Positions 1 through 17,717 of a DNA stretch of 64,000 nt are shown here, one piece after another. Made by a program: the position numbers and the translations under genes. This stretch comes from Gracilaria domingensis (Eukaryota > Rhodophyta > Florideophyceae > Gracilariales > Gracilariaceae), in assembly GCA_022539475.1 (NCBI GenBank), contig VCMS01000054.1:62001-126000 (forward strand). The letters run 5' to 3'. Below the pieces are notes generated by a model. That model was given only the letters and a program-made list of their open reading frames with translations, had not been told where the DNA came from and made no database searches. Positions within the stretch are counted from its first letter, which is position 1; the number at the start of each line of letters is the position of its first letter.

Positions 1-16
1 GACATACACAGCTATC

Positions 17-1812
17 TTGCAACATGCACAAAAAGACGAGGCGGAAAGACGTCCACGTCGTGCGAGGGAGAGGAGATCTCAAGCGGATACTCTGATGCGT
101 TCAAATTCCATATCTCTCATTCCTTCGTTCTTCGAAACTTCCGTAAGCCTTGGAATGATCCCGGGATTGTCTCCATACAGTCTGTTCTCATTCGAACCAT
201 TGCACAACTTGCATCTCGGCATCTCGAAGCTGATAAAAACGGCCACAATCGAGAGACTGCAGTCAGACACCCTTTGCACCACAATAGGAACATCGGCATC
301 GCGTTCATTTCGAACGATACGCACCCAAGTCCTCAACCATGCAAACGCAATTCTAGCTGCCATAGAACGCGATTCTCCTGCCAAAGGTTTACATATCGAT
401 TTCTCCACGCAGGAGAAAGGCAAATCTTTGAATGGTATCTTCACGAAAGACGGTCTCCGTGGAATGCTGGAGGCCAAAAACTACAAAGCACTTGACATGG
501 TCTTTCCCTTCATAGGAGCATTCTTTGACATATGCTGTGGAGAACAGGACGTTGCCCCAATCACAACCGTTTTCTCTCAGTACTCGGACTTGCTTTCGAC
601 CTTATTCAGATACAATCGTGACCCGTATTGGACTGAAAGCTCTCTCCTGTGTTTTAGTTCGGAGATTGAAGCCTTCAAGCGTTCCGCAACAAAGACTCTA
701 GCGGATTTTCATCCCTCCAGACTGGGAACTCTGAAGTTACATCTTCTCGATCATCTCGTGGACGATATTCGCCGTCTGGGAAGTGTCAAGTACTACGACG
801 CATGCATATACGAACATGCACACCTGCTATTTAAGAGACACTACAAAAAGACGTCCAGAAGAACAGCAACGGCTGTGGAGGAGACTATTCGCTCCATTGA
901 GCACGGACATGTTAGAAAGCAATGGAATGGCAATACTCCTTACCAGCGTAATCTAGGTTTACCAGGAACTTCCACACAGCTTCCTCGGTTTGCAATGAGA
1001 GGGCGTTCTTTCACTTAACGAGCTCTTCAACATTGTGTTTCAAGTATGTCCAGTCCCAAAACATGGACTGCTGTTAGAGAGATGTTCTCAAGTAGGGACA
1101 CAAGGTCGATGTTTGATCAAATTGGTGAACAGGCCCTTCCTCCTTTCCTCAGTCTCGTGAAAGAAACACTGGATGAGCACTCTATTACATACTTCCCAGA
1201 AAAGACAAGGATATCTCTGGTAAATTCGGCCCTCGTGAAAGGCGGTTTCGTTCCGACTCTTGAACACTTCGATTCGTCTTCTAAGGCACTTGAGCTGGGA
1301 CGACCCAAATACCCCATCATCCAACGTGTCTTCGCTTCTCCAGCATTTGGTCCCAGTAGAAAGCCAAAGTTTTCCACTGTATTAGTAAGCGGAGAAGATT
1401 CAGAGACTTGGGTTGCCCAGGTAGTCGCTCTGATTCGAATATCTCTCCTTGATTCTGCACTTACCGCACCAGAGGTGGAATTCGTCTGGTATTTCGAGGT
1501 TTTACCCCCGCAACAAACATCGACCACATATTGAAATGCATATCTTTACGGTGGGCTACAAACGATGAAAAGAACCACACTCTTCCGTTCCCTCGTCATT
1601 CCAAAGCGGAGACTATCGTAGAGTCAACTCCTTGGTACGGGATGGTTTCGGCTTCTGCACTACAGGGAACTGTCCATGTAGTTCGATCAAACGACCCTGC
1701 TCCACCTTTTTGTCCTCCACTTCAATGGTTTCAACACCGATTCTACATCAATCGATTCTATCATGATTCAGATGAAGGACCAACTGAGCACGTTGATCTT
1801 GTACAGCCTTAA
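17..1812 (+). pseudogene. TNP2/KDZ-like DNA transposase, C-terminal part, decayed
   Basis: Three blocks (17-1018, 1046-1534, 1531-1812) read as one degenerate protein. The first two share a frame and are separated by a TAA at 1016-1018; the third needs a shift near 1500. Seen: EPLHNLHLGISKLI near residue 60, a His-rich KLHLLDHLVDDIRRLG stretch near residue 240 followed by a YEHAHLLFKRHYKKTSR-type segment, and a C-terminal VHVVRSN ... FYINRFYHDS motif. This order (DPLHN-like motif, HLLDH and Glu/His helix, a WF-V-VNRFY tail) resembles TNP2, Plavaka and KDZ transposases. The N-terminal catalytic half lies before the window. It converges on the coiled-coil ORF at 1889-3325. Family assignment is by motif memory only; it may be a related superfamily. 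Confidence 0.5.
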
Positions 1813-1888
1813 ACATTAAGGGCTCCATCCTCTACATGTTCACCTTGTGGTGCCTTTTCTTGTGATCCTGTGTTACTTCCGAAATCGT

Positions 1889-3325
1889 TCATGTCCATTT
1901 CTTGAACTCCATATCCCCTTCCTCGCATTCACCAACGAAACAATCGCTAATAGAACCCAATCTTCGGCTCACACTGTCAATAAAAAATTGTTCTTTCACA
2001 GTGAGGTAAAGTCTTCCGTTCGACGGCATTCGATATCCAAATGTAGCCTCTCTCATGTCATTACCAAGAACCTTAGTCCAGTCTTCCGTTTTCGTTCCAA
2101 AATTATGAAACTCGCTGGAATTGGTCCTCAAGACACGTTGCCTAACATCCCCCAGAACATTCTTTAAACACAGAGGTAGCAGTTGGGCAAACTTCTTTGT
2201 AAACAGTTTCTGTCTCTGGCCACCCCTTGACACATCCGTACTTAGAAGGCTCACAACTGTCAACACCCAAGCGTCCAAACGTGCGAGCAACAGTATTGTG
2301 CCATCTAGAAAGCTGCCCGTATCCTTGTCTTCCACATCATACCGACTAAACTCTTTCAGTACTTGTACCCCGACACGGTTTCGGAAGAACAAGTCTTGAT
2401 CTTCCGTCGGCATATCCTCGACATTGTCCGCATTGGAGTACTTTAGACGAACAAATGGGGCTTTTCTCCACCATGAAGTGTTCAGTACACCATTTTCGTC
2501 AAGACGCAGTATGTTCTCCTGCGCTTCCTTCAACTGCATTGTGAGTTCGTCAGCATTCTCTTCTACCAGCTTTGTTCTTCTCCAAATCAGATCGTACCCC
2601 AGGAGCAGAAATAGTTTATCCCTCGTATTTCTCTTACGAACGCCCACGACGTCACTCATGGTCTGCCGCATTCTCTGCCTAAGGCACATATCTGCACAAA
2701 GTTCCAGTATACACCTGTCGGTAAGAGATGCTTTTCTAATACCTTCCCAGCTCAACTCCTTCAACTCTCTTTCAACCATTTTCTTCAGCAAAGCATCTGG
2801 CCCCACCTCTACCGACGGTGTGAACATGCCAAAACTGCCCAAGAGCTCCACGGGGTTTTTAGGAACCATGTATGAACCACCTTCCTCCGGTTCAATAAGC
2901 CCTTTCCCACTCTCAGTTGCGTCTTCCACCTTCTCGGCACGGCTACCCCAATTCCGGGTGAGCGACTCACCTTCGAGCCATAGCTCACTTGTTTCTCTCC
3001 TTGCCCACGTCAGCATGTTGTGATACACTGCTCGAGCAACCCCTCGAAACTCGTCGCACACCTCAATTTTATGCTTCTTTCGACCTGTCTGCCCAGGTTC
3101 ACCAGCACGTGTACTCCTATCTCCCTCCTGTTTCAGTGCCCTCCTTAGCCCTTCAATGACTAGATCCTTCTCTTCAAGCCTCTTTTTCAAAGCCGTACTC
3201 TGCTCTTGGGCGACCTTCACTAGAATTCCCCGAACCATCAAGTCCTCTTGTAGCTTCTTAACCTTTTCTTTCAAGCAATTCAGTTCATTTAAAAGATCAC
3301 GTCTGTTCATAGAGGTTGATTTCAC
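1889..3325 (-). CDS. Coiled-coil protein of unknown function, 478 residues, intact ORF
   Basis: The longest undamaged frame in the left block. The listed start is GTG; the first ATG is five codons in (MNRRDLLNELNC), so that ATG is the better candidate unless the frame continues from the repeat-rich ORF upstream. Residues about 9-70 form a heptad-rich coiled coil (LNELNCLKEKVKKLQEDL), then a basic linker (GRKKHKIEV), then a mostly helical domain with WARRETSELWLEG and DKLFLLLGYDLIWRR. No catalytic motif is recognised. It lies 3' of the repeat-rich ORF with the same orientation and may be its C-terminal continuation. Its integrity beside decayed neighbours is odd and could mean recent coding function. 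I do not recognise the family. Confidence 0.6.
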   Translation of the reverse strand: MKSTSMNRRDLLNELNCLKEKVKKLQEDLMVRGILVKVAQEQSTALKKRLEEKDLVIEGLRRALKQEGDRSTRAGEPGQTGRKKHKIEVCDEFRGVARAVYHNMLTWARRETSELWLEGESLTRNWGSRAEKVEDATESGKGLIEPEEGGSYMVPKNPVELLGSFGMFTPSVEVGPDALLKKMVERELKELSWEGIRKASLTDRCILELCADMCLRQRMRQTMSDVVGVRKRNTRDKLFLLLGYDLIWRRTKLVEENADELTMQLKEAQENILRLDENGVLNTSWWRKAPFVRLKYSNADNVEDMPTEDQDLFFRNRVGVQVLKEFSRYDVEDKDTGSFLDGTILLLARLDAWVLTVVSLLSTDVSRGGQRQKLFTKKFAQLLPLCLKNVLGDVRQRVLRTNSSEFHNFGTKTEDWTKVLGNDMREATFGYRMPSNGRLYLTVKEQFFIDSVSRRLGSISDCFVGECEEGDMEFKKWT

Positions 3326-3398
3326 ACCAGTGTGGAAATCTTCCGGATTTCCCTAGCCTCTTCGGCGAGAGGCCCCGGTAATGCCGCAGGATTCGGTG

Positions 3399-4172
3399 TT
3401 ATTTCGTTATCGGAACTATCCTCATGTGCCATACCCTTAGACACGAGAGGCTGCAGGCGTTCTGTGTCCACCCTTGGCACGGCTCCGAGCTCCAACTCCC
3501 GTGTCTGTCCTCCTCCATGGCATCGTATATCAGATGAATTGGGCCTCGTACGAGCTGTAACGGCCCTCGTTCTGGAAAGAGGGAAGGTCGAGGAGTAACT
3601 CGTCTATCAGTTGTCTCTCGATTTCTTATTGTCTTTCTCCCTTGTCCGGACCCATTGCGAGGCATAATACGATTCATGGCGGCCCCAGTTCTAGAAGACA
3701 GGGAGGGATGTGACGATCTTAACATACTAGGGCTCTCACGACTTCTCGCCATTGTCCCTTGTTGTCCAGATCCACTGGGCGGCGTAACCCGCGCCTCAGT
3801 AGCTCCGGTCTTCGATATCGGCCGGGGACATGAAGGTTTTGGTGTCATACGAACCTCTTCAGTTCCAGTTGTCATGCCCTCCTGTCTTGACCCGCTGGGC
3901 CGAGTTACCTCATCTTCTTGAGGAGCAGAGACAGATGCACGATTTGCATTATCGGCAGTTGACGGCACGACATCGCTCGCTGATCCACGAATTCTTGACG
4001 CAATCCCGGAAGACGCTCCGCTGCGAGATGGGCGAGAGAGTACTGTAGAAGGACGCCCACTGACTCTCTCCTTCGTCGAGGACGACTTTCGTTTAGGGAG
4101 TGCGGTGCTTGTAGCCTGATTCGTATCATCCGATGCTCTTCTCTTCTTCTGTCCACCTTGTTCCGCTGCGTA
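3399..4172 (-). CDS. Basic, Ser/Pro-rich ORF with three ~40-residue internal repeats
   Basis: A stop-free minus frame of 258 codons begins just after a TAG at 4173-4175; the upstream ATG at 4201 (MGITPRKRNS) lies in another frame. The N-terminus is rich in Lys/Arg/Ser (GQKKRRASDD, LPKRKSSSTKERVSG), as in a nuclear, disordered protein. From about 3910 down to 3600 there are three imperfect repeats of about 120 bp, each with a V-T/M-P-x-S/N-GS-x-Q-x-G core and a P-S-x-P region. The end overlaps the region just before the coiled-coil ORF; another frame carries on as an acidic stretch (AHEDSSDNE) towards it, so both may once have been one gene. Function unknown. Confidence 0.4.
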   Translation of the reverse strand, partial: YAAEQGGQKKRRASDDTNQATSTALPKRKSSSTKERVSGRPSTVLSRPSRSGASSGIASRIRGSASDVVPSTADNANRASVSAPQEDEVTRPSGSRQEGMTTGTEEVRMTPKPSCPRPISKTGATEARVTPPSGSGQQGTMARSRESPSMLRSSHPSLSSRTGAAMNRIMPRNGSGQGRKTIRNRETTDRRVTPRPSLFPERGPLQLVRGPIHLIYDAMEEDRHGSWSSEPCQGWTQNACSLSCLRVWHMRIVPITK

Positions 4173-4236
4173 CTATTTCGCTTTCTCGGCGTTATACCCA
4201 TGTTGTGGAGATAAATGGGGTAGTGAAAGGAAATTG

Positions 4237-4262
4237 TTGGAGGGGGGAGGGGTGGGGGGTGC
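4237..4262 (+). other. G-rich run (C-rich on the minus strand) in the gene leader
   Basis: Plus strand shows runs of six, four and six G separated by single bases, with a further GGGG about 20 bp upstream. On the minus strand, the sense strand of the flanking genes, it is an almost pure pyrimidine tract ending about 35 bp before the ATG at 4201. It could fold as a G-quadruplex or be a promoter or splice-associated pyrimidine tract. Confidence 0.35.
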
Positions 4263-4436
4263 ATGGTTCAGATATTCCGGGAGACTCCGCAGTTCCTCCT
4301 TTTTAGGAATTGGAGGTGCCCAATGGGTCGCAAATATCACCGTTACAGATGAAGAGCTCCAGTGTACAACAACGCGTATTGCAAGCAGCTGCAACATTCA
4401 CAAGCATATTTACTTTCTATTCGGTACTTAACTCAT

Positions 4437-5164
4437 CTATTGCTCCAATGTCAGAGCCCAGTCCCAGGCGTATTGCTCTCTGTAATTGAAATACAACTCT
4501 TCGCCCCTCCTAATATCTCTTACTGATCTACAACAAAGTAGAGCATAGTTAGAAAATCGGACGTAAACTCCATCACGGACTTCGCTTCCACCATCTGCAC
4601 ATTGGCACTTCTAGTCCTGTTTGACCGGGGCTCCGATAAATCGGGATCCTCGGCATGATATCCGGCGTCGTTAATGTAGCCCCCGATACAAAAAGGCGCC
4701 GGGACAATGTACACTTCGCTCTCCTTTCTATCCTGAGCCTGTCCTGGTCTGTTCCTCAGGTGCAGAAAGTCCGTACCAGTCACAATGACCATCATAGAAA
4801 ACAACTTGTACCGCACTGAAGTTGCTCCGAGACAGCCACTTCCATACGTTAAGTGTCTTTCCTTCCGGTTCGTCAGATCCGTGTATACCAAAGTTCCATA
4901 AAAATGACAGATAGTTTCCCCAGCCAATATCTTATGTTCCGTGAACACCCCCATACCGGCACGGGGATGTCGAATCTTAGAAGATGCTACATGTAAGCGA
5001 TAGCGATTGGCTTCAACAGTCAACAGCATATGCATATCCATTAGATTCAGAGCTCCTCGGTACTTCTCCTCCCAAAGATCTACAGTATGCTGTCCACACT
5101 TCTCAACAAAGTCCCAGTCCTTCCAGTATCTTCCTAGGAACTGAGTTATATGTGCAGGAATCAC
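4437..5164 (-). pseudogene. SET domain (protein lysine methyltransferase-like)
   Basis: C-terminal block of the fusion gene. Seen in order: RAGMGVFTEHKILAGETICHFYG (SET N-terminal G-x-G-V and AGE-I signature), GGYINDAGYHAEDPD ... RSANVQMV (pseudoknot segment N-D and NV), and, after a change of frame, VRDIRRGEELYFNYREQY, the GEEL-x-x-Y catalytic tail. It ends at a TAG at 4437-4439. The family methylates lysines on histones or other proteins. The order and conserved residues make a SET identification firm; its joining to a DNA methyltransferase is inferred from matching orientation and abutting frames. Confidence 0.65.
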
Positions 5165-6185
5165 TTGGTACTAGGGGTAGCCAAATGGAGCCTCCCATTC
5201 AAGCCGACCTCGGTCCCGATGTGGAACCCGTTCATAAGTCGTTGAAGCCGCATCCACCACCTCCTGTTCAACCAGGATGTCATTCTTCCCCCCGCGAATA
5301 ATTCGGCTATAAGAGTCGTTATATGGTGCTTCGCATGGATGAAACATGGCCTATTCTTCTCGCACCCCAAGAACGTCCTATGCTTTGTCAGCGATAGGCA
5401 CGCCATACCCGTAGAAAAAGTTCCCGCGAACATGTCCATGACAAGATCACCCGGTCTTGTGAAGCGACATATCAACTCTTTCATCAACTCCCTGGACTTC
5501 TGCTCCGGTCTTATGTACTGCCCACCTGGTACTGAACTACCTGGCTCATGTACCTTCCATGTCAACCACTCCCCCGCTCTCGGTTTTGGCACCCGGTCAA
5601 TTACATTCCTGTTAGCCGGGAAAGTAGAAGGAATGAAATTGTTCTCTTCAAGTGGAGTAAGACTGGCTTCCTCCGATGGTCGCAATCCACGCTTCACCCC
5701 ATGAACGGCGTACTCCGTTACGGGCTGTATCCCAAACTTCCGTGGTTCCCTCCAACATTACTTCGATCCCGGATGAACACCAGTGGATTCCCATCCACTT
5801 TAAACGAAGGCATGAGTTCTGGTTTACCTTCGCTTCCAGCTTCATCTTTCGTACTCGCCGTTTCCGAAAGTATCCTGTGCCAAACATGAAACTGTGCCAT
5901 GGCACAGAATATAATGAAGTGCCCACCTGACCGAAGCGGGGAACTTATTAAATCATCCGTACGGATCATGTCATCCTCACTGAAGACATCGTGAGCACTA
6001 TTCCGTTTGTTCCTCTTCCTTCGAGTGTTAAAGAGAGGGTCTGTTAGGACACGCTGTGCCTCACCCCATAAAATCTCACTCGGATTCACAAACGTTTCGT
6101 GTGTGTGCCTCAGGTCCTTCATGTCACAGTTGTACGCTACAAAGTGTGACTTTCTCATCCCCTTCCACACCTTGTCCATATTCAT
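5161..6185 (-). pseudogene. DNA amino-methyltransferase domain (N4C/N6A type)
   Basis: Sub-feature of the fusion gene. Seen: TDPLFNTR (usual motif IV is D/N/S-PP-Y/F), then GGHFIIFCAMAQFHVW, then NPLVFIRD, then an FPANRN/KPRAGEWLTWKVHEPG-type target region, then QKSRELMKELICRFTRPGDLV and FAGTFSTG (motif I), then FLGCEKN. The RELM...RFTRPGDLVMD pattern is the hallmark of the bacterial/phage DNA methylase N4/N6 family (Pfam PF01555). Substrate would be adenine N6 or cytosine N4 in DNA. The second Pro of motif IV is Leu, which would be expected to weaken base binding. Confidence 0.65.
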
Positions 6186-7578
6186 TCGAAGGAGACTAAT
6201 ATCCCTTCATGGGCGGCTAATGCCAGTCTTTTGGATGTTGTAACCGGCAACCCGGGATTCATGCTCGCAATATTCACCGCTTCTCTCAAAGTCATCGCTA
6301 TCGGAGCTCACGAGGTTCATATACTCTCGACGAGGTGGGGTGGGGCAGACTTGGTCGAAGAAGGTTCGGCATTAGAGAGTTTTAGGGGTTTTCGTCAGTT
6401 CAATATCAGGTTTCGCGTGAATGCCGACATGGAACCCTGCCGCATGACGCATATCCTGTATCGGTTTCCATAGCAACTCCGAAAACTTCTGAAATCGAGC
6501 AGGCAACTCACCGGAGTGAGAACCAGATACGGTATCCATCCGTATCTCCGAAAACTCTATCCAGTTCCTCATCTCATCAGCCCGTAAGCTATAGAGGCTA
6601 TCGTGGGTGCATATGGTTTCGAGGTCTGTCAAAAATTCCTTAGCCAGTATTCGGAGGTTTGTATCGCATTCATCACTCAAGGTCTCCACCGATCCACTAG
6701 TACTGCTCTGTGGCACATCCTGTGTGTTGAATCGAGTACTCTGGCTCGGCGGCGCATAACCAGACTTCCGTGTCTCTAGCGCTGTATACTTCAACGTCTG
6801 CATATTCATGTAAATGTATGGTTTCACCATGTGCTGAACGTTCGTGTATCCAAATGAGCCGCAAAACAACTCATGCCCATACGACCTCACTGATAGCGAA
6901 TCCCAGTCGATCACAGTTGTCTTTGGAGAACGACGTAAAAGTGGGTATGTACACAGATGGTGCATGGTTCACTTTTCGTTTCTTTTTCGGTTGTTTCTTC
7001 TTCATCATTCGGATGTTGTCGTTCTCTCCCATTATGTGGCCGAGGTATGATAAGTATAAAACGACCTCAAATGGGTTCACAGCTGTTGGTGGGATGAACA
7101 CTGTCGTCTTCAGAACCTGCTTTCTCCTGGTCATGAAAATAACCAACCAGGCATCGCACCGGTAGGTATATACCCATATCCATAGAGAGAAGGAGAAAAT
7201 CGGGAGTCTCTGGTCCTCATCCCCGTTCTTCTTGTCAAGAAGCTTCGTTACAAGATATCCTTGTTCCACAGGTTTGTTATTCACAACACTCTTTCGCAGC
7301 TGTTGCAGTGTGAAGTTCCGCAGGTTCTTGGAGTTGGTGGCCTCCTCAAACATCTTCCTTGCCTCCGGAATATCCTTATAGTTCTCGGCGCAGAACTCTA
7401 TTAAACCTCTAAACCCCACGTCCCGTGGCCGATCAGGGCCTCCATCGCTGTTTGCCAAAGCATCGCGAAGAACCAAGAAGAGTCTGACATATGCATGGAA
7501 CGCCGGAGGCGGAGCACTCATGTCGATAGGATGTATCTCCTATCCATCATCGGTGGAATCCATCGCTTCAGCGCAAAC

Positions 7579-7664
7579 AACGGAGGCGAGCCTTTAAATG
7601 GCGACTTACGCTGGGCACCCCGCTTCGGCAGCTTCTCCAGCGCACTGCCAGTTTCGTCCGTGTC
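7579..7664 (-). promoter_or_regulatory. Left copy of an outward-facing core promoter (inverted repeat arm)
   Basis: An 86-bp arm about 93% identical, in inverted orientation, to 8498-8585. Read on the minus strand it holds a TATA-like CCATTTAAAGG about 70 bp before the ATG at 7521 of the methyltransferase-SET gene. The similarity stops shortly after the expected transcription start. Confidence 0.65.
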
Positions 7665-7926
7665 CGTCGTCCGTGTCCGCTCCCTTCTGAGGTCGGTGTC
7701 CGTGCCGCTTCGGGCGGGTGCGATAGCGTCGCGTGTCGGCCACGTCGCGATTCGGAGCTATTGCAAAGGTCGCGTATTGTGATAATAGTCACGAACCAAG
7801 TGGGTGTGAAGCTCTAGTTTTCTCTAGTGTGATATATGTGCACGGCTTGTGCAGCGAAATCATTACCGAAAGTGCCGGGAGGAGGGTTTTGGGAGGTCTC
7901 CCGGAGCGTGCCAGAATGTGGCCATA

Positions 7927-8224
7927 ACGTGCCCGCGGGCGGGGGGTCGGTCCTGTTAGGGTAGGTACCCTAACACGACCGGACCCCCCCGCCCGCGGGC
8001 ACGTTTTGGGCGATTTTTTGAAAAATGTGCGATTTTATGCCGCGGGCCGGGGGGTCCGGTCGTGTTGGGGTATCTACCGTAACACGACCGACGCCCTCCG
8101 CCCGCGGGCATGTTTTGGGCGATTTTTTGAAAATGTGCGATTTTATGCCCGCGGGCGGGGGGGTCAGGTCGCGTTAGAGTACCTACCCTAACACGACCGA
8201 CCCCCCCCCCCGCCCGCGGGCACG
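7927..8224. repeat. Array of three ~75-bp GC-rich palindromes with AT-rich spacers
   Basis: Units at about 7927-8004, 8039-8111 and 8147-8224. Each begins and ends with a CCCGCGGGC block, holds G5-7 and C5-9 runs as arms, and has a centre related to GTTAGGGTA/TACCCTAAC. Spacers of about 35 bp are nearly identical to each other (TTTTGGGCGATTTTTTGAAA then TGTGCGATTTTAT). Flanks at about 7856-7926 and 8225-8288 are also inverted copies of each other (GCGAAATCA outer, AATGTGGCC inner), so the symmetry extends outward. Candidate origin, partition site or insulator between divergent promoters; function is inference. Confidence 0.75.
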
Positions 8225-8497
8225 TTCTGGCCACATTCCGGAGTCTTCCCGGGACCTTCCAAAACACGCCGCCCCGCAGTGATTTCGCTACACCCGGCCG
8301 CCGGTACGTTGGCGCCGCTGTCCACGTGCATTGGCGGGAGTTGGCTGTACATGAAAGTGAATGAGTGTACTCTTGACTACTATGCAAAGCATTTGAAGAC
8401 CACGACTAGAGAGCGCGACCATTGCTCGCGTGAGTCATCATTGCGCGAACTCCACGACTCTAAAGCGTACAATCAGCGTGCGAGCGTCCACAAACAA

Positions 8498-8585
8498 GAC
8501 ACGGACGAGACTGGCAATGCGCTGGGAGGAGCTGCCGAAAGCGGGGTGCCCAGCGTAAGTCGCCATTTAAAGGCTCGCCTCCGTT
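8498..8585 (+). promoter_or_regulatory. Right copy of an outward-facing core promoter (inverted repeat arm)
   Basis: Mirror copy of 7579-7664. It carries CCATTTAAAGG about 75-80 bp before the ATG at 8648 of the ParB-like gene. The pair places the same core promoter on both divergent genes, which should give matched expression. Confidence 0.65.
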
Positions 8586-8647
8586 CTTGTATCGTCCAGA
8601 GCGAGCGTATTGTTGACATACACCTTTCACTGCAATAGCTGTTCAAC

Positions 8648-10282
8648 ATGAAGCCAACTCGTGTTCGAAAGCGTACGCAAAGCGTGACTGCTCGCACTCG
8701 GGGAGCACTCGATCATTGCAAGGTGAAATGCGGGTTTCTCTGCAGATGGATATTGAGAATGAAGGAAAGGTGATAGTCGGGGAAGCGTTGTTGCATGGAA
8801 TTGGAAGTGTTCTACGCCCGAGTTGAACGGGAAGCAATTGGACCCAGGTCTTGTGGTGGTTCATAATATTCTCATCAGTCGAAGCGGTCAAACGTTCTAC
8901 CCTTACCGGGCGGAGGGCCTGGATCTTCCACAATACATCCAGGATCTCCGGACGGCCGCTCCTCGGGATGAGAAAATGATGGAACCGGTGGCAGCCAGCA
9001 TTCCGGCATCCAAGCGACGAACGGTGAGCGCTATGAGTGAGGTGATGACGCCGACAAGCCGCACGGAGCCAATTCGAAGTTCATCAACAGCGAGAAGTAG
9101 CGCATCAGTAGCACCTCCGCGGGCCGGTCCATCGTCTGTTACGAAGCGGACTAAGGAGACGAGATCATCCCCAGCTACGAAGCGGACACGTCAAACAAAG
9201 TCTACCTCCGCTACGAAGCTCACTGCGTCGAAAAGGGCATCTCCTGCGATGAATCAGACCGTCGACACAACGGGAACTTCTGCGTCGAAACAAACGGTTC
9301 AGCACGTACGGCTGTGCAAGAAGAGGAAGATGAGATCATAAAAGGTCCCCTTCCAGACGCGGATGCGCAATCCGCACAAGGAGCTGGTCCATCTGTACCC
9401 AAACTGCACCAGAAACTGCGGAGCAGCAGGACGATGACGTTGTGCTTCTGCCGAAAGAATGGCACGTTCAAGTGTTTCTGGTGAGCGGTCTGGAACACAA
9501 GGGACACCTACTCGGAGCAAGACGTACAGACGAATTCGTCAGAAGGTACTAAAGGTGAACCTTAATCACTACCGGATGGTTGTTGTTACTGTTGACATCA
9601 CTTTGGTGGACACTCCGCCCAATTTACTCCGTGGCAGAAGTAAACGCACGTTGAAGCCCTTGTGAAGAGTATGGAGGAGCGGGGGATATTGCAGTCGATG
9701 GGTTCTCCAGTGGTGGCCTTACAAGATGCTACTACGGGAGAGAGGGATACTGACAAGGGACGCCTAACGAAGAAGTGCTTCATTGTAGATGGCTTGCATC
9801 GTCTGAAAGCTATGCAATATTTGGCAGCGACTGGTGCACAGAAGTGGAAGCGATTAGCCAAGTTTTGGCGTTGCAATCTGCTGATACGAAGAGATGGAGG
9901 CCCATTGGGATGAAGGAATTGTTATGTGTTGCTTCGTACCTCAATGAGTCGAGGAGTACCATGCGAAGGATGATGTTTGCAGACAAGATACACTCTATAG
10001 TTAGTGTGGTCGCCATTCTAATTGAAGATGTTGAGGGGGTGACGCCGGCAGACGTGGATCCTGCAGAAGTGACAGAAGTGTTGAAGGAGAGCCAACTGAT
10101 TGGGACTGTGCAAGAGCGTCAGTATCCTGAGATATGCCAATGTCGCCCTGCAACTCATGTCTCGTGAGGGAATGCTGGCCCATTTCAAGGATATATGTGA
10201 GACTGTGAGTGACATAGGTCTCACACATCTGTCCATACTCCGCTATATGTTTTGGATTCCAGGAGTTTTCCTTCATTCTTGA
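8648..10282 (+). pseudogene. ParB/sulfiredoxin-type nuclease-fold protein, decayed
   Basis: ATG 8648 (MKPTRVRKRTQ) opens a basic leader; the block 8823-9341 is Ser/Thr/Lys/Arg-rich with repeated S-x-x-TKRT units, like a DNA-binding tail. The block 9459-9913 gives VDITLVDTPPN ... LVKSMEERGILQ ... KCFIVDGLHRLKAMQYL, which matches the ParB N-terminal fold: a V-x-x-I/L strand with NP-like turn, a helix S-I-x-E-x-G-x-L-Q, and the V-D-G-x-H-R-x-x-A signature (usually DG-H-R). The blocks 9775-10167 and 10100-10282 are helical. The frame changes several times, so the gene looks dead. In bacteria ParB-fold domains often accompany or are fused to DNA methylases of the kind encoded across the hub. Confidence 0.6.
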
Positions 10283-12538
10283 TTGTCTTCAGATGTTTCT
10301 ATGGAGGGCAAGTCGACGAAGACAAAGCAATGGAAAAGCTTTGAGGAGGTTCGAGGTTTCTTTTATGATAGAGCAGTGTCTCTGTTCCGCGCGGCTAGAG
10401 CAGTGAGGAATGAACTGAACGAGGAAGAGTCCATGGAAGTGTTCCTGAAACGCGAAGTCAGTCTTTCTGCTCCATCGAATGAAGATGACGTGAAGACCCA
10501 GACAACAACGCAGCTGCGTATCAGTTCCTTTTGGGACAAGTTGTGAACTTCAACACATTGCCGCGTGTTCGGAGCAGGACGAACTCAATTAGAACTGCCA
10601 CGACTTCCGTTCAGAATCGATTGCGGACGATGCTCAACGTAATTCCGCCCCCCGCACCAGTGAAGCAGTCCGTGACGAAGAGGAGGACTCCCGCTGCTGC
10701 TGCTGCAACATCTGCCAGTGAAGAAGGGAGCCGCGAAGAAGTGCACGAGAACGGGCGCAGGTGAGTTCTAGGGAAATTGAGCACGGCCGAAATCGAGGTG
10801 CCATAGAAGTTCTGGATAGCTCTGAAGAAGAACAGCGGGCTCCGCCGAGGAAGAAACGGAGAAAGACTTTCACACAACAGATGAGATCTACTCTGAACAG
10901 CATGACACCGGATGACCTGATGTCTCAACTAAATGAACATGTGCTGAGAGGAACGTCGATGAAGGTTCAGTCGTGGCATTGGGAGAGGGAGCGAATGCAG
11001 AGAACGCAGGCAGTTCTGCATTTGTGGATGACGATGAGCTTCTTTCTGTGACAGTTCCACGGATTGTCACCGTCGAGAAAGATGCTGGCCAGACGATCAG
11101 CAAGAGACAGGTGGGGGGTCATTTGATGACGAGTTACCTACAGCTCTTCCGGAATCTGAGGAGCACGGACTTGTTCGAGGTGACCCATATGATGGCCCAC
11201 CGAACCCTTCATGGTGCGGGTATGCCAGGCTGAGACCGCAGGAATGGCAAGGAAGAACGTAATTGAGCACAGGACCACTGGCTCAGAGTCATTCACTTGC
11301 CGAAGGGACATAGGTCGGAGCTGCTAAGTGTCTCGAATCTCAGAGATGTACACCATCTTGTCTTTTGGCACGCTGCAAGGGCTGAACATCGCCTACGGGC
11401 GGAGACATTTGGTATGCGGTATCCTCGTACTCGACCGACAGGTATGGATGATGAAGAGGTGCTGTGGGTTGCTGCGAAGGAGCATGACGAATTTGGGCAA
11501 ATGTTCTTCGCCGAATGCAAGCTGAGCTAAGGCAGAATGGATATTGCGTGCTTGATGGCTTTGCGACGGATTGGTGTCTCTAAATGTGAGGAGTTCGAAG
11601 AGGTTCGGGAGTTCGGAGGATGTGTCGGGGAAGTTGGTAGGCACTTCTTCGAGAAGTGAGTATGGAGCGATGCCGGATATACGGATAAGGGGAGGAACAG
11701 AATGTCGTATATTATTGTTCAAATATCAAGCCGATGATGAAGGGATGGAAGGACGGTAGACGGATGACCATTCTGAGGGGAGAGGTGATGTCGACACGTT
11801 GGGGTACGATGAGAAGCCGGAGGATAATAATGAGGGACTCAGGTGGGTTGTAACAGTCGCGTGCTTTACTTGATGTTCGAATGGGTCAATTTGCTGCGGC
11901 TTTGGGGACTATGGGACAGATGAAAGGGAAGCTGTGAAGATGTACATTTCCGAAAAACTGGTGTCGATTTCTGGGTATCGGAACAGATAAGTGCGAAGCG
12001 CCAGACGCCTGCATCCAGCCGCTATATATAGTTACGAAAGGAAACTATGAATACTTGGCAACCCCACCCCGGAATACTTTGTATATGGCCTCTGGAAAGA
12101 GGCTTTCTCTCGGGTGAGCGCTTGGAAGCCCATCACTGGTGGGGATGACACAGACCAAGCCAGTTGCGAGTGATAGTGGAGGTGTATCTCCGCGAAGGAA
12201 GATAATCATCGCCAGTCCGTACCTGTATCCGTGGCCGTGGTGATGTGACACATGCTGGAGCAAGTGGGAAGGACAGGTGGATAGGTCCGCGAGTCTATGG
12301 ATTCTGCTGGTTAGATACCAATGTTACATGGTACCAGAGGGCTACGCAACTACCTGACTGCTTGTTAAATCGGGTGCAGGATTTCCGACCCACGGTTTGT
12401 AATGGTGACGAGGAGGGAATCGGAGATGAACTGTTGTCCGATAAGGAGGGTGGGGCGGTTGACGATGGACGGAGACCAAGTGGTCGTGAGATTGGTGTGG
12501 AAGCGGACGCCGGTAGAAGCCGAAGTGCTCGAGAGTAG
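10283..12538 (+). pseudogene. Unknown decayed gene with NLS-like basic patch
   Basis: Same-strand blocks at 10283-10546, 10531-10764, 10761-11051, 10973-11233, 11297-11530 and 12245-12538 follow the ParB-like gene. Visible features are an acidic-then-basic segment (LDSSEEEQRAPPRKKRRKT), an RDVHHLVFWHAARAEHR segment and a C-terminal GPRVYGFCWLDTN stretch. Between 11531 and 12244 coding-like peptide runs are still visible but broken. No family is recognised. Orientation and spacing suggest it was transcribed with or just after the ParB-like gene as part of the same mobile unit. Confidence 0.35.
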
Positions 12539-12775
12539 TAGTGATGACTAATTTGCCAATAATGAGGGCTGCGAGCGCCTCGAAGTGGTTGAGANATCGA
12601 ACTGTTGTCCGATAAAGGAGGGCGCGGTCACGGTTGGACATGGACGAAGACCAAAGTGGTCGTGAGATTGGTGTGGAAGCGGACGCCGGTAGAACCGAAG
12701 TGCTCGAGAGTAGTAGTGATGACGATTGCCAATAATGAGGCTGCGAGCGCCTCGAAGTGGATGAGAATGAGATGA
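12427..12775. repeat. 171-bp near-tandem duplication spanning the single N
   Basis: Segments starting at about 12427 (GAACTGTTGTCCGATAAGG) and about 12598 repeat each other for about 165 bp, differing mostly by single-base indels in short runs. The only ambiguous base of the window (12595) lies at the junction. Indel-type differences at a joint with an N point to an assembly merge of two low-quality read ends rather than biological duplication. Confidence 0.7.
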
Positions 12776-13085
12776 TTAGTAAATTATGTGTGTCTTGCGA
12801 GTATTAAGAGTAGTATACTATTACAAGGCTATACATATGAACATAGAAAAGGTGCGGCAGGCTGGTAATTGAACAAATGTCAAACGTCTTTGGTCCAGTT
12901 GCGTCTAATTGCAACATGCGAAATGCTCGGTATCGTTAACATCATTGGTGGCACCAGTCAATTCGCAATTGAACATGTAGCGTCCTAACATTTCTGAAAC
13001 TGCACTTAAGGTTGCTTTTAAGAGAAGTATATGCAGTTCCTGTCTATGCGGTACTTGTGGCAGTATGGTGACTGTATCAGGAAAA
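12776..13085. other. Intergenic spacer
   Basis: AT-rich spacer between the decayed block and the first HAD gene. Short helical-looking frames only; no convincing gene or RNA seen. Confidence 0.4.
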
Positions 13086-13925
13086 ATGGCAGAGGAACAG
13101 AGAGACTTGGCGGAAATTTCACCCAATACCTTGTCTAAGTTCATATATGCCAATGGTTACGGTATATTAAGTTCCGTTGATGGAACGTTGAGAAGAGAAG
13201 GAGAGTCAATCCCAGAAGAAGTTGTGAAGTGTATGAAGTTCATTGACGAACGTGTTGGTTTCGGACTTGTCACAGGGGGTGATGTGGGCGACGTGGAGGG
13301 GAAAATGGAAGGACTCGGAGACTATACGTTTGGTGTCTCGGCGAATCATGGAGCTTTCTTGCGTTTCTCTGACGAGAGGGAAATTAAGGGTGCATTCAAT
13401 GATCACACCCTTGACCATACTGTTGACGGACTACTGTTCCTGGCAAGGGATTTGAATAGGAGGCATGGTATTGTGAATGATGATGACAAGGGGTTCGTGG
13501 AGACCAGAAGTGATAGTGGCCTTCCCAATTTCGTGTACAACAAACTGTGGCAGTGGGAAGAAGAAGTGGATTCTGCTATTGGGGACCTGTTGCAGAAGAT
13601 GGATGCGTTTGTTATCTATCTCGGCGATAAAAGTTGCGAAATTGTGGACAAGCGATACACAAAAGGAAGCGGAGGAGAAAATCTTGTGGATAATGAACCG
13701 AGATTTATTGATACGGATGACGTCGTGACGTTCGGAAGTGCTTTGAGCGACGGGCCTTTGCATGAGGTAGGCGTGTACGGCGTTCACGTCAAAGAAAATT
13801 GTATCCCGCGTGGAGTACACAACCTGTTCGAAAGCGTGGAGGATGTACATTCGACAATTATGTTGGTGGCTCTGTTGTACGGCTACGAAGAAAAGCAGCA
13901 CGATAAAAACCACCAAGATTCATAA
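13086..13925 (+). CDS. HAD-IIB phosphatase paralogue lacking the nucleophile aspartate
   Basis: 279 residues from ATG 13086 (MAEEQRDLAEISP), chosen because it aligns with the paralogue's MYNSEVRAQEVTP; an in-frame ATG lies at 13065. HAD motif I should be D-x-D-G-T; here it is S-V-D-G-T-L, so the aspartate that forms the phospho-enzyme is Ser. Motif II Thr is kept (LVTGGD), the cap region follows (SDSGLPNFVYNKL), and motif IV is GSALSDGPLHEV. Fold family: Cof/sucrose- or mannosyl-phosphoglycerate-phosphatase-like HAD. It probably has lost phosphatase chemistry and may bind ligand or the active paralogue, or be decaying. It converges with the second copy across about 50 bp. Confidence 0.75.
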   Translation: MAEEQRDLAEISPNTLSKFIYANGYGILSSVDGTLRREGESIPEEVVKCMKFIDERVGFGLVTGGDVGDVEGKMEGLGDYTFGVSANHGAFLRFSDEREIKGAFNDHTLDHTVDGLLFLARDLNRRHGIVNDDDKGFVETRSDSGLPNFVYNKLWQWEEEVDSAIGDLLQKMDAFVIYLGDKSCEIVDKRYTKGSGGENLVDNEPRFIDTDDVVTFGSALSDGPLHEVGVYGVHVKENCIPRGVHNLFESVEDVHSTIMLVALLYGYEEKQHDKNHQDS

Positions 13926-13977
13926 AAGGGTATTGAGATATACACGACACTTTTATTACTGAGATCTCATATCATAG

Positions 13978-14849
13978 CTAAGTATTAAAGGCATCGTAGC
14001 ACTTGAAACAAATTCCAAGAGCATTTCTAAACCTTTGACACTTGCATTTTCTGTACCCGTACAGTTCTGCCACCCTTCTGATGGTCTCATGCACGTCCTC
14101 CACCCCATCAACAAGATATGTTACCGCTGCTGGATGGTCTTCTCCCTTCACATGAACTGCCAGGGTTGCCATTTCATATAGAGGGCCATCATTGGAAGCA
14201 TTCCCGAAAGCAACGATTAAATGTGTGTCGAACTGGGGGTCGTTTTCAACCAAGGCTAGCGCCCCACTATTTTCGTGAAATGAATGTCCCCTATGTCACA
14301 GTTTTCATCTTGAGGGTACGCAACCAGGTTCGGAAAGGATGTCAACACTTTTGAAATACCGGAGTTAACTTCTGTTTTCCACTTCGACAGTCCATTGTAC
14401 GTGAAGTTAGGGAGTCCACTGTCTTTTCTAGTGCTCACCACTGCTTGTTGACGCTCTTCGTGAAGTCCGTGCGATTCATTTAAGGAGAGTGCAAGTCTCT
14501 CAAGTTCGGCTGCACATCTTTCGTAACCTTCCCTGTCAAGGTCCTGATCAATTTCGGTGCCATTGGATAATCTCACCCGTGCGCCTTGGTTTCCAGAGAT
14601 GCCAAAAGTGTAGCCACCCAGGTGCTCCATGAAACTCTCGGCATCCTCTATATCTCGCCCAGTAGCAATTCCGAAACCAACGCGTGCGTTGATGTACTTC
14701 ATGCATTTGACTGTTTCGGCAGGAATGTTCTCCCCAGCTCTTTTCAGAGTACCGTCAACATCACTAATCACGGCGTAGCCATTTTCGAATATTTCGTTAG
14801 CCAGCTGCTGAGGAGTTACTTCTTGGGCTCTAACTTCCGAGTTATACAT
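13978..14849 (-). pseudogene. HAD-IIB phosphatase (Cof/MPGP-like) with one frameshift
   Basis: ATG 14849 (MYNSEVRAQEV); upstream in-frame ATG at 14927. Motif I is intact (SDVDGTL), motif II is GIATGRD, the cap has KDSGLPNFTYNGL, and motif IV is GNASNDGPLYEMA. The frame runs 14849-14256 to HFTKIVGR and continues one base out of phase from 14253 (LVENDPQFD) to the C-terminus KCYDAFNT. The break lies at about 14255-14262 in a GGGGC run and could be a one-base sequencing error in an otherwise active gene. About half of residues match the plus-strand copy. Likely an inverted local duplication. Role: sugar-phosphate dephosphorylation; substrate unknown. Confidence 0.75.
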
Positions 14850-14930
14850 GTTTTGAAAGCTTTCGAAAGGGTTCGTTTTGCAAATGGGTGTGGGTATACG
14901 AATGAGAAGGATGTGATTGATGTTCACAAG

Positions 14931-15445
14931 GTGTTTCGTAGTATAAAAAGAGTCTAAGAACGACCATATACGGGTATTGTAGTATTTTTTTAAAACGTTA
15001 CTAGGAGGAGAAGTTTTTGCATCGATTTGAAGTAAAGAAAGGATGATTTAGTCATAAATTATATGTACGGGTTCAAGTGGGTAAAGAAAACTGTAAATAT
15101 CTTTAACATGAGCTTAGAAACCAAGAAGAGTAAAACATCCTCCATTACGGGTTGAAACCCATAAAAGGTTTACCTTACTTTATACGGGTGCCTCAAGTAA
15201 TGCAAACGCTTAGTTCTTCAGAAATATCACAATTTTTGTACTTGTTTCGTTACTAGTATCGTGCACTTTAATGATATGGAATGACCATTTTCTATCTAGC
15301 AAAATCTTAACGAAGTATTAGTGATAACGGATGTAGGATTTAAAGGGGCATATTTGAACCACAGAAGGAAGAACAATATAAGTAATGTAATAGGAACAGG
15401 TCATTTCGATAAAGTAAATTTTATGTCTAACTATGTCTAAAAGGT
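14931..15445. other. AT-rich intergenic spacer
   Basis: No coding frame, RNA gene or repeat that I can support. A TATAAAAAG at about 14942 on the plus strand is not followed by a gene. Confidence 0.4.
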
Positions 15446-16366
15446 TCAGAACACCGAAAAGTCATGTGTTCTAACCTCAAAGCTGGGGGATAACTTTTCC
15501 TTAACAACGTTGACGTAGTTTGTATGAAAAGGAGCGGGGTCACCGCCTACAATGTTTCTTTCTTGGCGGGAAAAGTCGTAGAAGTACGCGTTCCTAAACT
15601 GAAAGTCGGAGAAAGAAGTAGGGAAGCCAACGAGAGTTTTCCCATATGCAAGAAGTCGCCCAACGGTCTCTTCCAGGTTGAAAGTAGTAGCTGTCTTAAG
15701 CGAAACTATCTTCAACAGCTCTTTCATTATTGTGAGCACAACCGTACTGCACTCCGTAGCGACTACGTCCATAGGAATGAAACCTCTTGAGGCCCCGACG
15801 ATGTTGATCGATGATAGCCACACGAGCTCCTCATAATAGCTTACGAGAAATGTGTCTTCGTCGACAACCCCGCAAGTGAGACCCATAGACCTAAACCTGT
15901 CTGCAACGTTGGAGGCCCACTTTCCTGTTGCGACAGTGAGACCATCCGGACTTTGAGGAGTGACACCATCCTGCGGAGCTGCGTTTCTTGAGGGGACACC
16001 AACGTATAGGACAACTTTTGAACATTTGTCCAAACCGAGCTTCGAAAGCAATGGTATGATGTCTCCATTCTGGAAGAAAACGAGATTCTCTCTGAGCGAA
16101 TAAGGGCAAGCCTGAATTACGGTCTCCAGGGTGTTCGTTCTTCCACAAACTAGTATCGGTACATCAGAAAGATGAGAGGTAGCAGCTATGAGGCAGAATT
16201 CGTGTGCGGAAATGACCGTATCTTCTTCGTTCGCCAGCATGGTACCTATACGCCCCCTTCCAACAATAACGGCCCGAGTCCTTCGGGCGGGAGATGAGGC
16301 CTGAGGGACGTCAGAGTATCTGGGACTCGGAGGCGGAGTCGGAGGCATGTCGGACTGGGAGTTCAT
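15446..16366 (-). CDS. Ketopantoate reductase-like NAD(P)-binding protein
   Basis: 306 residues from ATG 16366 (MNSQSDMPPTPPPSP); the frame is open further up to 16567 but that part looks like leader. A Pro/Ser-rich N-terminus is followed at about residue 33 by RAVIVGRGRIGTMLA, a Rossmann G-x-G-x-x-G nucleotide loop. Then VPILVCGRTN, LVFFQNGD (the F-x-N-G step of 2-dehydropantoate reductases), VVLYVGVPSRNA, and an all-helical C-terminal part beginning WLSSINIVGASRGFIPMD. The family reduces 2-keto acids or is a set of ApbA/PanE-like proteins of unknown substrate. No targeting peptide is clear. Gene looks whole. Confidence 0.7.
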   Translation of the reverse strand: MNSQSDMPPTPPPSPRYSDVPQASSPARRTRAVIVGRGRIGTMLANEEDTVISAHEFCLIAATSHLSDVPILVCGRTNTLETVIQACPYSLRENLVFFQNGDIIPLLSKLGLDKCSKVVLYVGVPSRNAAPQDGVTPQSPDGLTVATGKWASNVADRFRSMGLTCGVVDEDTFLVSYYEELVWLSSINIVGASRGFIPMDVVATECSTVVLTIMKELLKIVSLKTATTFNLEETVGRLLAYGKTLVGFPTSFSDFQFRNAYFYDFSRQERNIVGGDPAPFHTNYVNVVKEKLSPSFEVRTHDFSVF

Positions 16367-16766
16367 TGCAAGTGTTCGATTGTTTTTGTGTGACGATAAA
16401 AAGGGAAGATGGGGCGGAGAACTGCTGGGGTAAAGAGTGATACGTAAGTACAAACGGTTGGGAAGCGCAGAACGGGAATATGGTTCACTTTGTGAAACTG
16501 AGCGAAATGTATGATATGTGATTGTACTGAATGAATGATAGGGCTTGTATGAGACGCCAAGCCACAAAGTGTGATGATGTTTTATGAAAGGTAGGTGGAA
16601 CAGTAGAAAGTGTGCAATGAATGAAACTGATTTCGAACCTGAGTTGTAAAGTAGTTGTAAAGTACGAGTTACGGGGAGCTTGAATACAGGATGAAAGGAG
16701 CCATTTTGGCTTCATAAATGAGGTGAACGGGTTTTATAGCTTCAATCGGATTGCCATAATTAAAAG

Positions 16767-17490: not shown

Positions 17491-17717
17491 GGTGGGGACT
17501 ATGTGAAGAGGGGACAGAGAGATGGCGCTTAAATAGTGGAAGGTGCGGAGGTGTACAGTGGATGTTTTGGCGGGAAACGGGATGAGGGAAACAGGGACAA
17601 TCATGGTGCTGGATCTAGCCCGTGTGGTTGGACAGTGGGGGTGGACAGCACAGTTTAGCTCGATTGCACTGTATCGCAGCGGAAATTTCGATCCAACTAC
17701 TACTTCTTCTTCTCAAG

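Follow-up and report, generated by a model that had tools for sequence, protein, structure and literature searches.

Genes and features of the locus

The locus lies within a 64,000-nucleotide stretch of the genome of the red alga Gracilaria domingensis (referred to below as the window). Positions 17-12538, originally proposed as a candidate mobile unit, turn out to be the middle of a repeat unit of ~22.4-22.9 kb, which runs from window position -3180 to 19675 (C54:58821-81675). This unit and its genes are directly observed, with the following features in window coordinates:

1..1812, plus strand: C-terminal part of a Plavaka transposase; the frame starts upstream (C54:60511) and maps to window ~-1489..1809
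1889..4201, minus strand: gene for an 834-aa protein in which NLS-like basic stretches and coiled coils can be seen by eye; broken in the window
4437..7563, minus strand: DNA amino-methyltransferase (beta class, DPPF motif) with C-terminal SET domain; indel-broken in the window, open in other copies
7576..8588, no strand: palindromic hub; outer inverted arms 7576-7625/8539-8588, inner palindromic units of ~109 bp at 7930-8213
8648..12538, plus strand: ParB-like gene with motif VDGLHRLKAMQYL in ORF 9644-9913; broken in the window, ~1300 aa where open
12428..12768, no strand: scaffold join in the window copy; a 175-bp stretch is present twice, with a single N at 12595
12981..13925, plus strand: HAD-family hydrolase gene 1, 314-319 aa; Hydrolase_3 E 3.9e-5
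13978..15047, minus strand: HAD-IIB hydrolase gene 2, 356-357 aa in other copies; Hydrolase_3 4.9e-12 (L021:944-2011)
15446..16711, minus strand: 415-421-aa gene, domain-free in the Pfam scan; also in the short element C53:204397-215620
17619..18647, plus strand: 342-357-aa gene, domain-free in the Pfam scan; frame in other copies
18522..19675, no strand: right end, tandemly doubled in the window copy (ends 19085 and 19675); terminal sequence TCCACTTTGCAGAACACAGACG

A preliminary description of this DNA had named the tail of a TNP2/KDZ-like transposase, a minus-strand methyltransferase-SET gene, a plus-strand ParB-fold gene, a further NLS-bearing gene and a symmetrical hub from which the middle two genes diverge. 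All of these features are present, the last-named gene being the 834-aa frame of other copies (complete at L008:5329-7830, with no Pfam match; at least 54 places match it, all 54 that were scored out of 1018 first-look candidates). The points that require revision are the type of the transposase and the limits of the unit. Towards the right end, the second HAD gene (L021:944-2011) also matches TIGR01484 at 2.6e-10, just below the cut-off.

The transposase

The transposase frame is open over 1100 aa in copy C120, and Plavaka is the sole transposase model in Pfam that this frame matches at E<=1 (PF18759; L022:3683-6982, E 1.5e-18, 67.6 bits against a cut-off of 26.3), by which a KDZ/TNP2 identity is rejected. 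The motifs CHRC and HLLDH can be picked out by eye, in that order, in L011:4732-6018. Plavaka matches number at least 123 in the genome, all 123 scored candidates (of 672) being matches, and they are found in 0 of 14 control genomes, a weak control since these genomes seem to be mainly prokaryotes. At C505 the Plavaka match lies on the wrong side of the methylase-SET gene.

The methylase-SET gene

In copy C465 (L004:2009-5173) the methylase-SET gene is a single frame of 1055 aa, with matches to N6_N4_Mtase (E 3.9e-15) and to SET (E 1.8e-7; 32.0 bits against a Pfam cut-off of 22.4). Such full, stop-free frames are found in 9 of the 44 copies scored (the best 44 of 1088 candidates), the remaining 35 having stops or being incomplete. 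The gene has the signature of purifying selection (omega 0.59, p 5e-4) and is the only one for which significance survives correction for eight omega tests; that of HAD gene 1 (omega 0.5, p 0.023) is lost, and the tests gave no signal of selection for the 834-aa, second HAD, 415-aa and 342-aa genes.

A search of 5.8 billion proteins with the full-length query returned 25 homologues, two of which are named (Chondrus and Pyropia), and both domains are annotated in 19 of the 25 (precomputed column). A 198-aa methylase fragment used as query found nothing, a blank which must be an artefact of length given the 25 found with the full-length protein. Across the query and 23 of the homologues aligned to it, D521, P522 and P523 are invariant, as are G727 and T728, and the methylase motifs are conserved even in distant relatives; TDPPF stands at 520-524, followed by the SAM-binding motif DMFAGTFSTG at 723-732. 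The SET domain, in the same alignment, has nearly invariant N978, E1036 and Y1041, with the motif GEEL...Y. The usual NHSCxPN signature is absent from it, IND.RY being there in most of the aligned homologues (P0034 and P0039 differ), and for this reason the histone activity of the SET domain stays putative.

An AlphaFold model of the homologue P0021 (41% identity in the alignment; pLDDT 78) has as its best Foldseek matches M.BceJIV, CcrM and M1.HpyAVI, and viral SET proteins also match. The DPPF motif and these best structure matches point to N6-adenine as the predicted mark, although N4-cytosine enzymes are among the matches too (PvuII and bdelloid N4CMT, the latter with structures 8s9m-8s9o; ranks 29 and 32). 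The profile of the methylase-SET family matches KMT2C, KMT5A, EZH2 and one viral H3K27 enzyme. A viral origin was considered and rejected: when viral contigs were scanned with the 24-sequence methylase-SET alignment, 0 relatives came up among 37 pattern matches. Most of the viral proteins listed as structure matches are a methylase or a SET protein by itself; another is a phage protein named ParB/Sulfiredoxin.

Chondrus and Pyropia have homologues among their named genes, which would suit a host epigenetic enzyme, or a captured passenger gene, without any element-specific role. In G. domingensis, however, the gene is multicopy (44 scored places and 14 more) and forms two diverged subfamilies which both adjoin Plavaka, and we consider this reading very improbable. 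As the scored sets are the best 44 of 1088 and the best 46 of 774 candidates, a single-copy host gene may still exist.

The hub and the ParB-like gene

The hub is a strong palindrome of the kind prone to form cruciforms. Its outer arms are 98% complementary, far beyond chance, and its core folds with a z of -16 relative to shuffles; each arm contains TTTAAA, at distances of 13 and 60 nt from the start codons of the two flanking genes. Of 19 loci examined, 13 (10 distinct copies) have both arms, L003, L028 and L025 a single arm, and L052, L030 and L019 none; two of these six (L028 and L052) are short elements, one (L003) includes an N run, and two (L030 and L019) do not span the hub. A scored ParB-like match lies within 5 kb at 15 of the 44 scored methylase-SET places, and in all 15 of these pairs the two genes diverge across the hub, with 0 on the same strand, against a chance expectation of 0.15.

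The ParB-like gene has frames of up to 1295-1318 aa in other copies. Its assignment to ParB is of moderate strength, and rests on the motif DG.HR..A, a weak PHROG match (phrog_3264, E 9.9e-4) and one fused relative. Pfam ParB gave no match, and the AlphaFold model of the 89-aa frame in the window has a pLDDT of 47, making it unusable. The fused relative is the homologue P0044, in which the ParB-like phrog_1033 is matched at E 4.9e-6 by the first 131 residues and at 6.2e-5 by the whole; this N-terminal ParB-like domain brings ParB, methylase and SET together in one chain. In the general Pfam scan no ParA model was listed for the 10 element frames.

Copies, termini and flanks

The exact left end occurs 478 times, and the exact right end 492 times, in the 78 Mb genome of G. 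domingensis. The termini have the form CGTCTGT...ACAGACG, and no subterminal repeats common to left and right ends were found with E <0.7. Around four full-length copies, the ~2 kb on either side show no mutual similarity, from which a collinear block of conserved host genes is rejected. The gene order moreover recurs in other copies. The mobile unit that had been postulated is supported: its many dispersed copies, common ends and unrelated flanks are all found, with 2-bp duplications only in shorter members, and the DNA methylase, the SET domain and the ParB-like gene are its cargo. The suggestion of a plasmid-like replicon is abandoned, as the unit is integrated, with defined termini and with duplications in those shorter members.

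The short elements that were read are collinear pieces of the long one. Elements from which the whole methylase-SET/ParB module is absent still carry the ends and target duplications, which implies that the module is not needed in cis, and these module-free elements seem to be the commoner form (478 left ends against at least 44 scored methylase-SET places). Hundreds of element copies and fragments are present in the genome.

Target duplications and the state of the assembly

Identical 2-bp flanks are found in 14 of 16 end pairs spaced 10.2-15.4 kb, the exceptions being C8:31767-43001 and C57:208626-222664, but in 0 of 7 pairs spaced 16.9-22.9 kb, including all five 22-kb pairs read. The flanks of the C57:63647 pair match only under an assumed one-base change in the left end. 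Among the end pairs read, a target duplication is proven for no element containing methylase-SET. We infer, rather than observe, transposition of the full 22 kb.

The mismatched flanks of the seven long pairs are what would be expected of a composite locus, in which a 10-kb Plavaka transposon and a methylase-SET/ParB/HAD repeat are nested or were joined in assembly, such that no 22-kb transposition unit exists. The scaffold join in the window copy is in keeping with this, as are the step in identity from ~94% to 98% at 12594-12599 and contigs C53, C218 and C502, where copies are nested and rearranged; sequences matching either side of the join overlap by ~163 bp in other copies. Against it, 6 of 7 methylase-SET places on contigs C2-C67 lie 10.4-11.2 kb from a left end, in the right orientation (C32 is the exception; the first 100 of the 478 left ends were used), and the 834-aa gene sits inside an element of 13.1 kb (C42:69778-82852) that is flanked by a TA duplication. 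The collinearity of the short elements and the arrangement kept by a second subfamily (see below) also argue against a composite, which we consider rather unlikely. Chimeric assembly, or recombination via a long repeat, is the likely cause of the mismatched flanks, a judgement based on the scaffold join in the window copy.

The blocks had also been described as decayed. The methylase-SET frames of C165 and C465 differ by 1 substitution but 4 indels across 3.2 kb, and some of the apparent decay of the family is therefore probably due to sequencing indels. The window copy, with 89 substitutions and 14 indels relative to C465 in this frame, has truly diverged as well.

A second subfamily

A second, divergent subfamily occurs in the same genome, with a SET domain 40% identical to that of the first over 139 columns. 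It was delimited by scoring the best 46 of 774 candidates, of which 19 lie outside the first 44 methylase-SET places; matched range and identity assigned 14 of these 19 to it, leaving out C61, C9, C174, C250 and C296:103932. Plavaka and methylase-SET are found on opposite strands, 4.67-5.06 kb apart, at 7 of the 14 places (7 of 19 on the full base), the same arrangement as in the first subfamily, and at the other 7 the best 123 of 672 Plavaka candidates include no match at the expected site. C61 and C174 lie next to a first-family copy of the 834-aa gene.

Proposed mechanism

The reading that we favour, at a probability of roughly 0.62, is that of a giant (~22.4 kb) cut-and-paste transposon of the Plavaka lineage, equipped with a dual DNA-and-histone writer that acts on its own chromatin. 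The chromatin activity is something we infer, and the proposal that the element modifies its DNA and the chromatin around it gains in plausibility from the conservation of catalytic motifs. The transposase would bind the ends and move the unit, and the two divergent genes would be co-expressed from the near-identical inverted promoter arms of the hub. Methylase-SET, with what would be two writer activities in one chain, would then methylate the element's own chromatin in two places, at adenine N6 in the DNA and at lysines of the histones. At the hub, the ParB-like protein may assist it by binding DNA, by an NTP-driven action or by nicking. Copies would probably profit by being kept expressed or shielded from host silencing, along the lines proposed for the TET/JBP genes of fungal transposons. 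Elements of 10-15 kb would be internal-deletion derivatives, having lost the module partly or wholly and moving on the same ends.

Dam methylation promotes some bacterial transposons. The module could similarly serve replication or transposition, through hemimethylation timing or nicking at the hub, and have no anti-silencing role. A bacterial ParB-adenine methylase fusion, Bce_0392, is described as nicking DNA (PMC5512222), and the hub is a cruciform-prone palindrome; but a SET domain fits chiefly chromatin, and the module-free elements, which have the ends and duplications and seem the commoner form, also speak against this explanation, which we regard as quite unlikely.

Beyond the favoured transposon reading, a more far-reaching and doubtful extension is a self-contained epigenetic system, in which one polypeptide would write both N6-methyladenine and a histone mark, and the giant ParB-like partner would load at a palindromic, centromere-like hub and spread, to give a heritable chromatin state independent of host silencing. 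The module, which accompanies Plavaka in both subfamilies and has methylase-SET counterparts in Chondrus and Pyropia, would then be an old red-algal one, sometimes fused as ParB-methylase-SET. We know of no other eukaryotic transposon with such a system.

Chromatin marks are generally regarded as imposed on transposons, with some elements editing the marks. If the transposon reading is correct, a DNA transposon carries a single protein that would methylate both DNA and histones and that has been conserved across long evolutionary distances, together with a ParB-like partner. This would bear on the source of 6mA in algal DNA, on how bacterial methylases turn into eukaryotic epigenetic tools and on the persistence of a 22-kb element at high copy.

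Comparison with known systems

No comparable element was found in the open-access literature searched, and red algae appear in none of the titles among the listed matches for open-access Plavaka literature. Fungal elements carry TET/JBP erasers, for which a role in shielding or expression has been proposed, and retrotransposons have reportedly acquired C5-methylases, to go by the title of a 2018 study.

In a 2025 study (Kojima 2025, PMC12730594), Plavaka (CMCT group) is placed with EnSpm/CACTA; fungal PlavakaA has a 2-bp duplication and termini TGT..ACA, PlavakaB a 2- or 3-bp duplication and termini CATCA..TGATG, and some fungal Plavaka elements carry a DNA-modifying TET/JBP gene. The algal element shares with these the Plavaka transposase, the 2-bp duplications and, with some, a DNA-modifying cargo. 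It differs from them, as far as that text goes, in its ~22 kb, its CGTCTGT..ACAGACG termini and its methylase-SET, ParB-like and HAD genes, and from the TET/JBP-carrying transposons in that the Pfam scan of its 10 frames gave no TET/JBP match at E<=1. Its termini fit neither PlavakaA nor PlavakaB, which suggests a new terminal type or lineage.

The 'Plavaka giant repeats' of Amoebidium reach 50 kb and contain many tyrosine recombinases, and some of their genes match red algae; the accessible text on them mentions neither methylase-SET nor ParB (PMC11244446). The N4CMT of bdelloid rotifers (PMC8885841) likewise joins a beta-class bacterial amino-methylase to a eukaryotic chromatin domain, in that case a chromodomain. 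N4CMT reads histone marks, however, whereas the partner domain in the alga is a putative histone writer, and belongs to a transposon family. Finally, bacterial and phage ParB-methylase fusions (phrog_67, and Bce_0392 as far as it is described in PMC5512222) combine ParB-like and amino-methylase functions on mobile DNA, as P0044 does within one chain; the algal element differs from them in being eukaryotic, in its extra SET domain and in having the ParB-like protein as a separate gene of ~1300 aa.

The repeat unit and its ends

The window is contig stretch C54:62001-126000 in a genome of 77.9 Mb and 680 contigs. The genome has 11 match rows to the chlorophyll-binding family PF00504, in keeping with an alga, and a red alga is suggested by the named Chondrus crispus and Pyropia yezoensis relatives of the methylase-SET protein and by long frames free of introns. 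A genome search with window positions 3000–9000, in which scoring covered the best 29 of 740 candidates, gives matches of at least 2.4 kb and 93–96% identity at 28 further places. The aligned copies have a left edge at window position −3180 and a right edge at 19675 in common, both of them sharp, and five copies, each 22.4–22.9 kb long, possess both ends (C-numbers denote contigs).

Copies of the repeat unit with both ends
C54:58821-81675, the copy of the window
C57:63647-86477
C165:38979-61409
C120:256979-279394
C34:184904-207547, of which both ends and the location of the methylase-SET gene are known

The termini, CGTCTGTCTCTTGC... on the left and ...TTGCAGAACACAGACG on the right, form an inverted repeat that is perfect over 7 bp and imperfect beyond. 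The exact ends (20 and 22 bases) occur 478 and 492 times in the genome, with 0 occurrences of the reversed control. This element family is as real as it is unusual: the repeat unit, its ends and the conserved methylase-SET gene are solidly established, and the near-identical copies suggest that it has been active recently. In the right end of the window copy (18522–19675), a terminal block of ~590 bp stands twice in tandem, like two right ends placed head to tail.

Target duplications and the pairing of ends

Flanks were read for 23 same-strand pairs of ends, 19 of them taken from the 100 places listed first for each end and the other four belonging to aligned copies of the unit. Identical 2-bp flanks are found in 14 of the 16 pairs lying 10.2–15.4 kb apart (nine of ten in one set; C28, C26, C42 and C54, with C57 the exception, in another; and C42:69778-82852). 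Since such a match is expected by chance in about 1 in 16 pairs, the mobility of the short members is proven. None of the seven pairs 16.9–22.9 kb apart has identical 2-bp flanks, those of C57:63647 matching only if a one-base change in its left end is assumed. The long members have the ends in common, and both the pairing of these ends and a target duplication of the 22-kb unit itself are putative. That flank matches vanish abruptly in the longer pairs fits chimeric assembly through a long repeat, with ectopic recombination as a possible alternative cause. At 12428–12768 the window copy contains a scaffold join, in which a 175-bp stretch occurs twice around a single N at 12595, and therefore its left and right halves may differ in origin.

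The short elements examined are collinear pieces of the long one. The 11.2-kb element C53:204397-215620 comprises window −3179 to 1437, pieces of the hub with 7991–9566, a short piece near 13527–13649, and 15393 to the right end; the first junction of a 10.3-kb element in C8, of which the first 5 kb were read, is the same (1434 to 7734). From this composition, both retain the transposase and the hub and have lost the methylase-SET gene and the 834-aa gene. In the C53 element the ParB-like and HAD genes are mostly missing as well, and those at the right end are retained. The 834-aa gene is retained in the 13.1-kb element C42:69778-82852, which has a TA duplication.

Gene content and constraint

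The transposase, an open frame of 1100 aa in C120, matches Pfam Plavaka (E 1.5e-18), and a 428-aa part of it has 20 homologues at 32–52% identity, all 20 without a name. In a 2025 study (PMC12730594), fungal Plavaka elements are grouped with EnSpm rather than KDZ and have target duplications of 2–3 bp and termini of the types TGT..ACA or CATCA..TGATG, neither of which is matched by the Gracilaria termini. The closest precedent found for the size and the intron-poor cargo is the ‘Plavaka giant repeats’ of Amoebidium (PMC11244446).

With the Chondrus protein as query (best 46 of 774 candidates scored), additional methylase-SET genes were found in the genome; across 139 SET columns, the one in C12 has 39.6% identity to the first family. 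At seven of the 14 places of this second subfamily the opposite strand carries a Plavaka match at a distance of 4.67–5.06 kb, an arrangement also seen in the first family; in C505 the Plavaka match lies on the other side of the methylase-SET gene.

Members of the second Plavaka and methylase-SET subfamily
C12:68428-76501
C22:687175-695253
C399:5394-13693
C277:55973-63832

The like arrangement in so divergent a subfamily means that the association of Plavaka with methylase-SET predates the present burst of copies.

The 834-aa gene was scored at 54 places of 1018 candidates, many of them open and four 100% identical (the query's own included), and at 11 of 44 methylase-SET places it follows that gene on the same strand after a gap of 144–793 bp. 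The remaining cargo consists of two HAD hydrolase genes, a 415-aa gene and a 342-aa gene. The HAD genes (window 12981–15047) stand tail to tail and are ~46% identical over 187 aa.

Selection was assessed in eight genes by counting the unique substitutions in the copies read, with a single open frame of each gene as the reference. Nonsynonymous changes make up less than the expected share in methylase-SET (omega ~0.59, p 5e-4), the transposase (0.78, p 0.008), the ParB-like gene (0.68, p 0.014) and HAD1 (0.50, p 0.023), methylase-SET alone staying significant after correction for eight tests; no such deficit appears for the 834-aa (0.89), HAD2 (0.88), 415-aa (1.09) and 342-aa (0.93) genes. As these counts take in decay after insertion, constraint during spread was probably stronger. 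Against the C465 methylase-SET frame, C165 has 1 substitution and 4 indels, C296 has 4 and 1, and the window copy 89 and 14; with so few substitutions, the isolated indels of C165 and C296 look like errors of sequencing rather than decay.

The methylase-SET protein

The frame is open over 1055 aa in C465 (N6_N4_Mtase 3.9e-15, SET 1.8e-7), and 44 places of 1088 candidates were scored in the genome, nine with a full frame free of stops and 88–100% identical. Among 5.8 billion proteins, residues 450–1055 have 25 homologues (27–46% identity, E 2.3e-31 or better), two of them named, from Chondrus crispus and Pyropia yezoensis. Precomputed Pfam assignments place the methylase in all 25 and SET as well in 19; in our own scan of eight homologues, P0036 also reaches the SET cut-off, P0022 falls below it and P0045 has no SET match. 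When the query and 23 homologues are aligned, DPP and the GT within the SAM motif do not vary and GEEL...Y of SET is retained, with IND at the NHSC place in most. A structure model of the homologue P0021 (22 sequences, pLDDT 78) best matches M.BceJIV, CcrM and M1.HpyAVI, with PvuII and bdelloid N4CMT ranked lower, and also matches viral SET proteins; the family profile matches KMT2C, EZH2, KMT5A and the PBCV-1 H3K27 enzyme. On account of these motifs and matches both catalytic domains look functional, their substrates being putative. The predicted specificity is more likely N6-adenine, and a function in chromatin is proposed.

Bdelloid N4CMT (PMC8885841), in which a chromatin domain is joined to a bacterial amino-methylase, is the closest precedent found for such a fusion; it is a histone reader, the SET-bearing protein here being a putative writer. 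ParB–methylase fusions are known in bacteria (PMC5512222). Within the open literature covered, neither a methylase-SET fusion nor ParB on a eukaryotic transposon was found to be reported.

The ParB-like gene and the hub

The ParB-like gene was scored at 53 places of 1220, with frames of up to ~1295–1318 aa, some without stops. The region around VDGLHRLKAMQYL has a ParB-like PHROG match in two copies (E 9.9e-4 and 1.8e-3), from which the ParB fold is putative. In the homologue P0044, a domain ahead of methylase and SET (residues 1–131) matches five ParB-like PHROGs (best 4.9e-6), its top PHROG (3.4e-8) being a function-unknown entry; ParB and methylase-SET are thus joined in one chain outside the window's family. 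Of the 44 methylase-SET places that were scored, 15 have a scored ParB-like match within 5 kb; it is divergent at all 15, with the match starts 0.9–2.2 kb apart, and on the same strand at 0, against a chance expectation of 0.15.

Between the two genes lies the palindromic hub (window 7576–8588). In the window copy its outer arms stop short of the two start codons by 13 and 60 nt and contain the same TTTAAA. Of 19 loci searched, 13 have both arms, and these represent 10 distinct copies; by self-comparison at four loci the arms measure 81–100 bp and are 93–99% complementary. They enclose palindromic units of ~109 bp, 2.6 of them in the window, and the arm-to-arm distance ranges from ~0.9 to 1.5 kb between copies. 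On single-strand folding the hub core has a z of −16.4. The simplest reading of the arms is that they are common promoter arms of the divergent genes, and the hub is a possible ParB-binding site. At C218:145646, C502:11577 and C218:164760 element ends abut other copies of the family, one such end lying inside the hub. Frames at window 24657–25823, 31711–32445 and 46776–50459 resemble, by eye, Copia- and Gypsy-type retrotransposon polyproteins.
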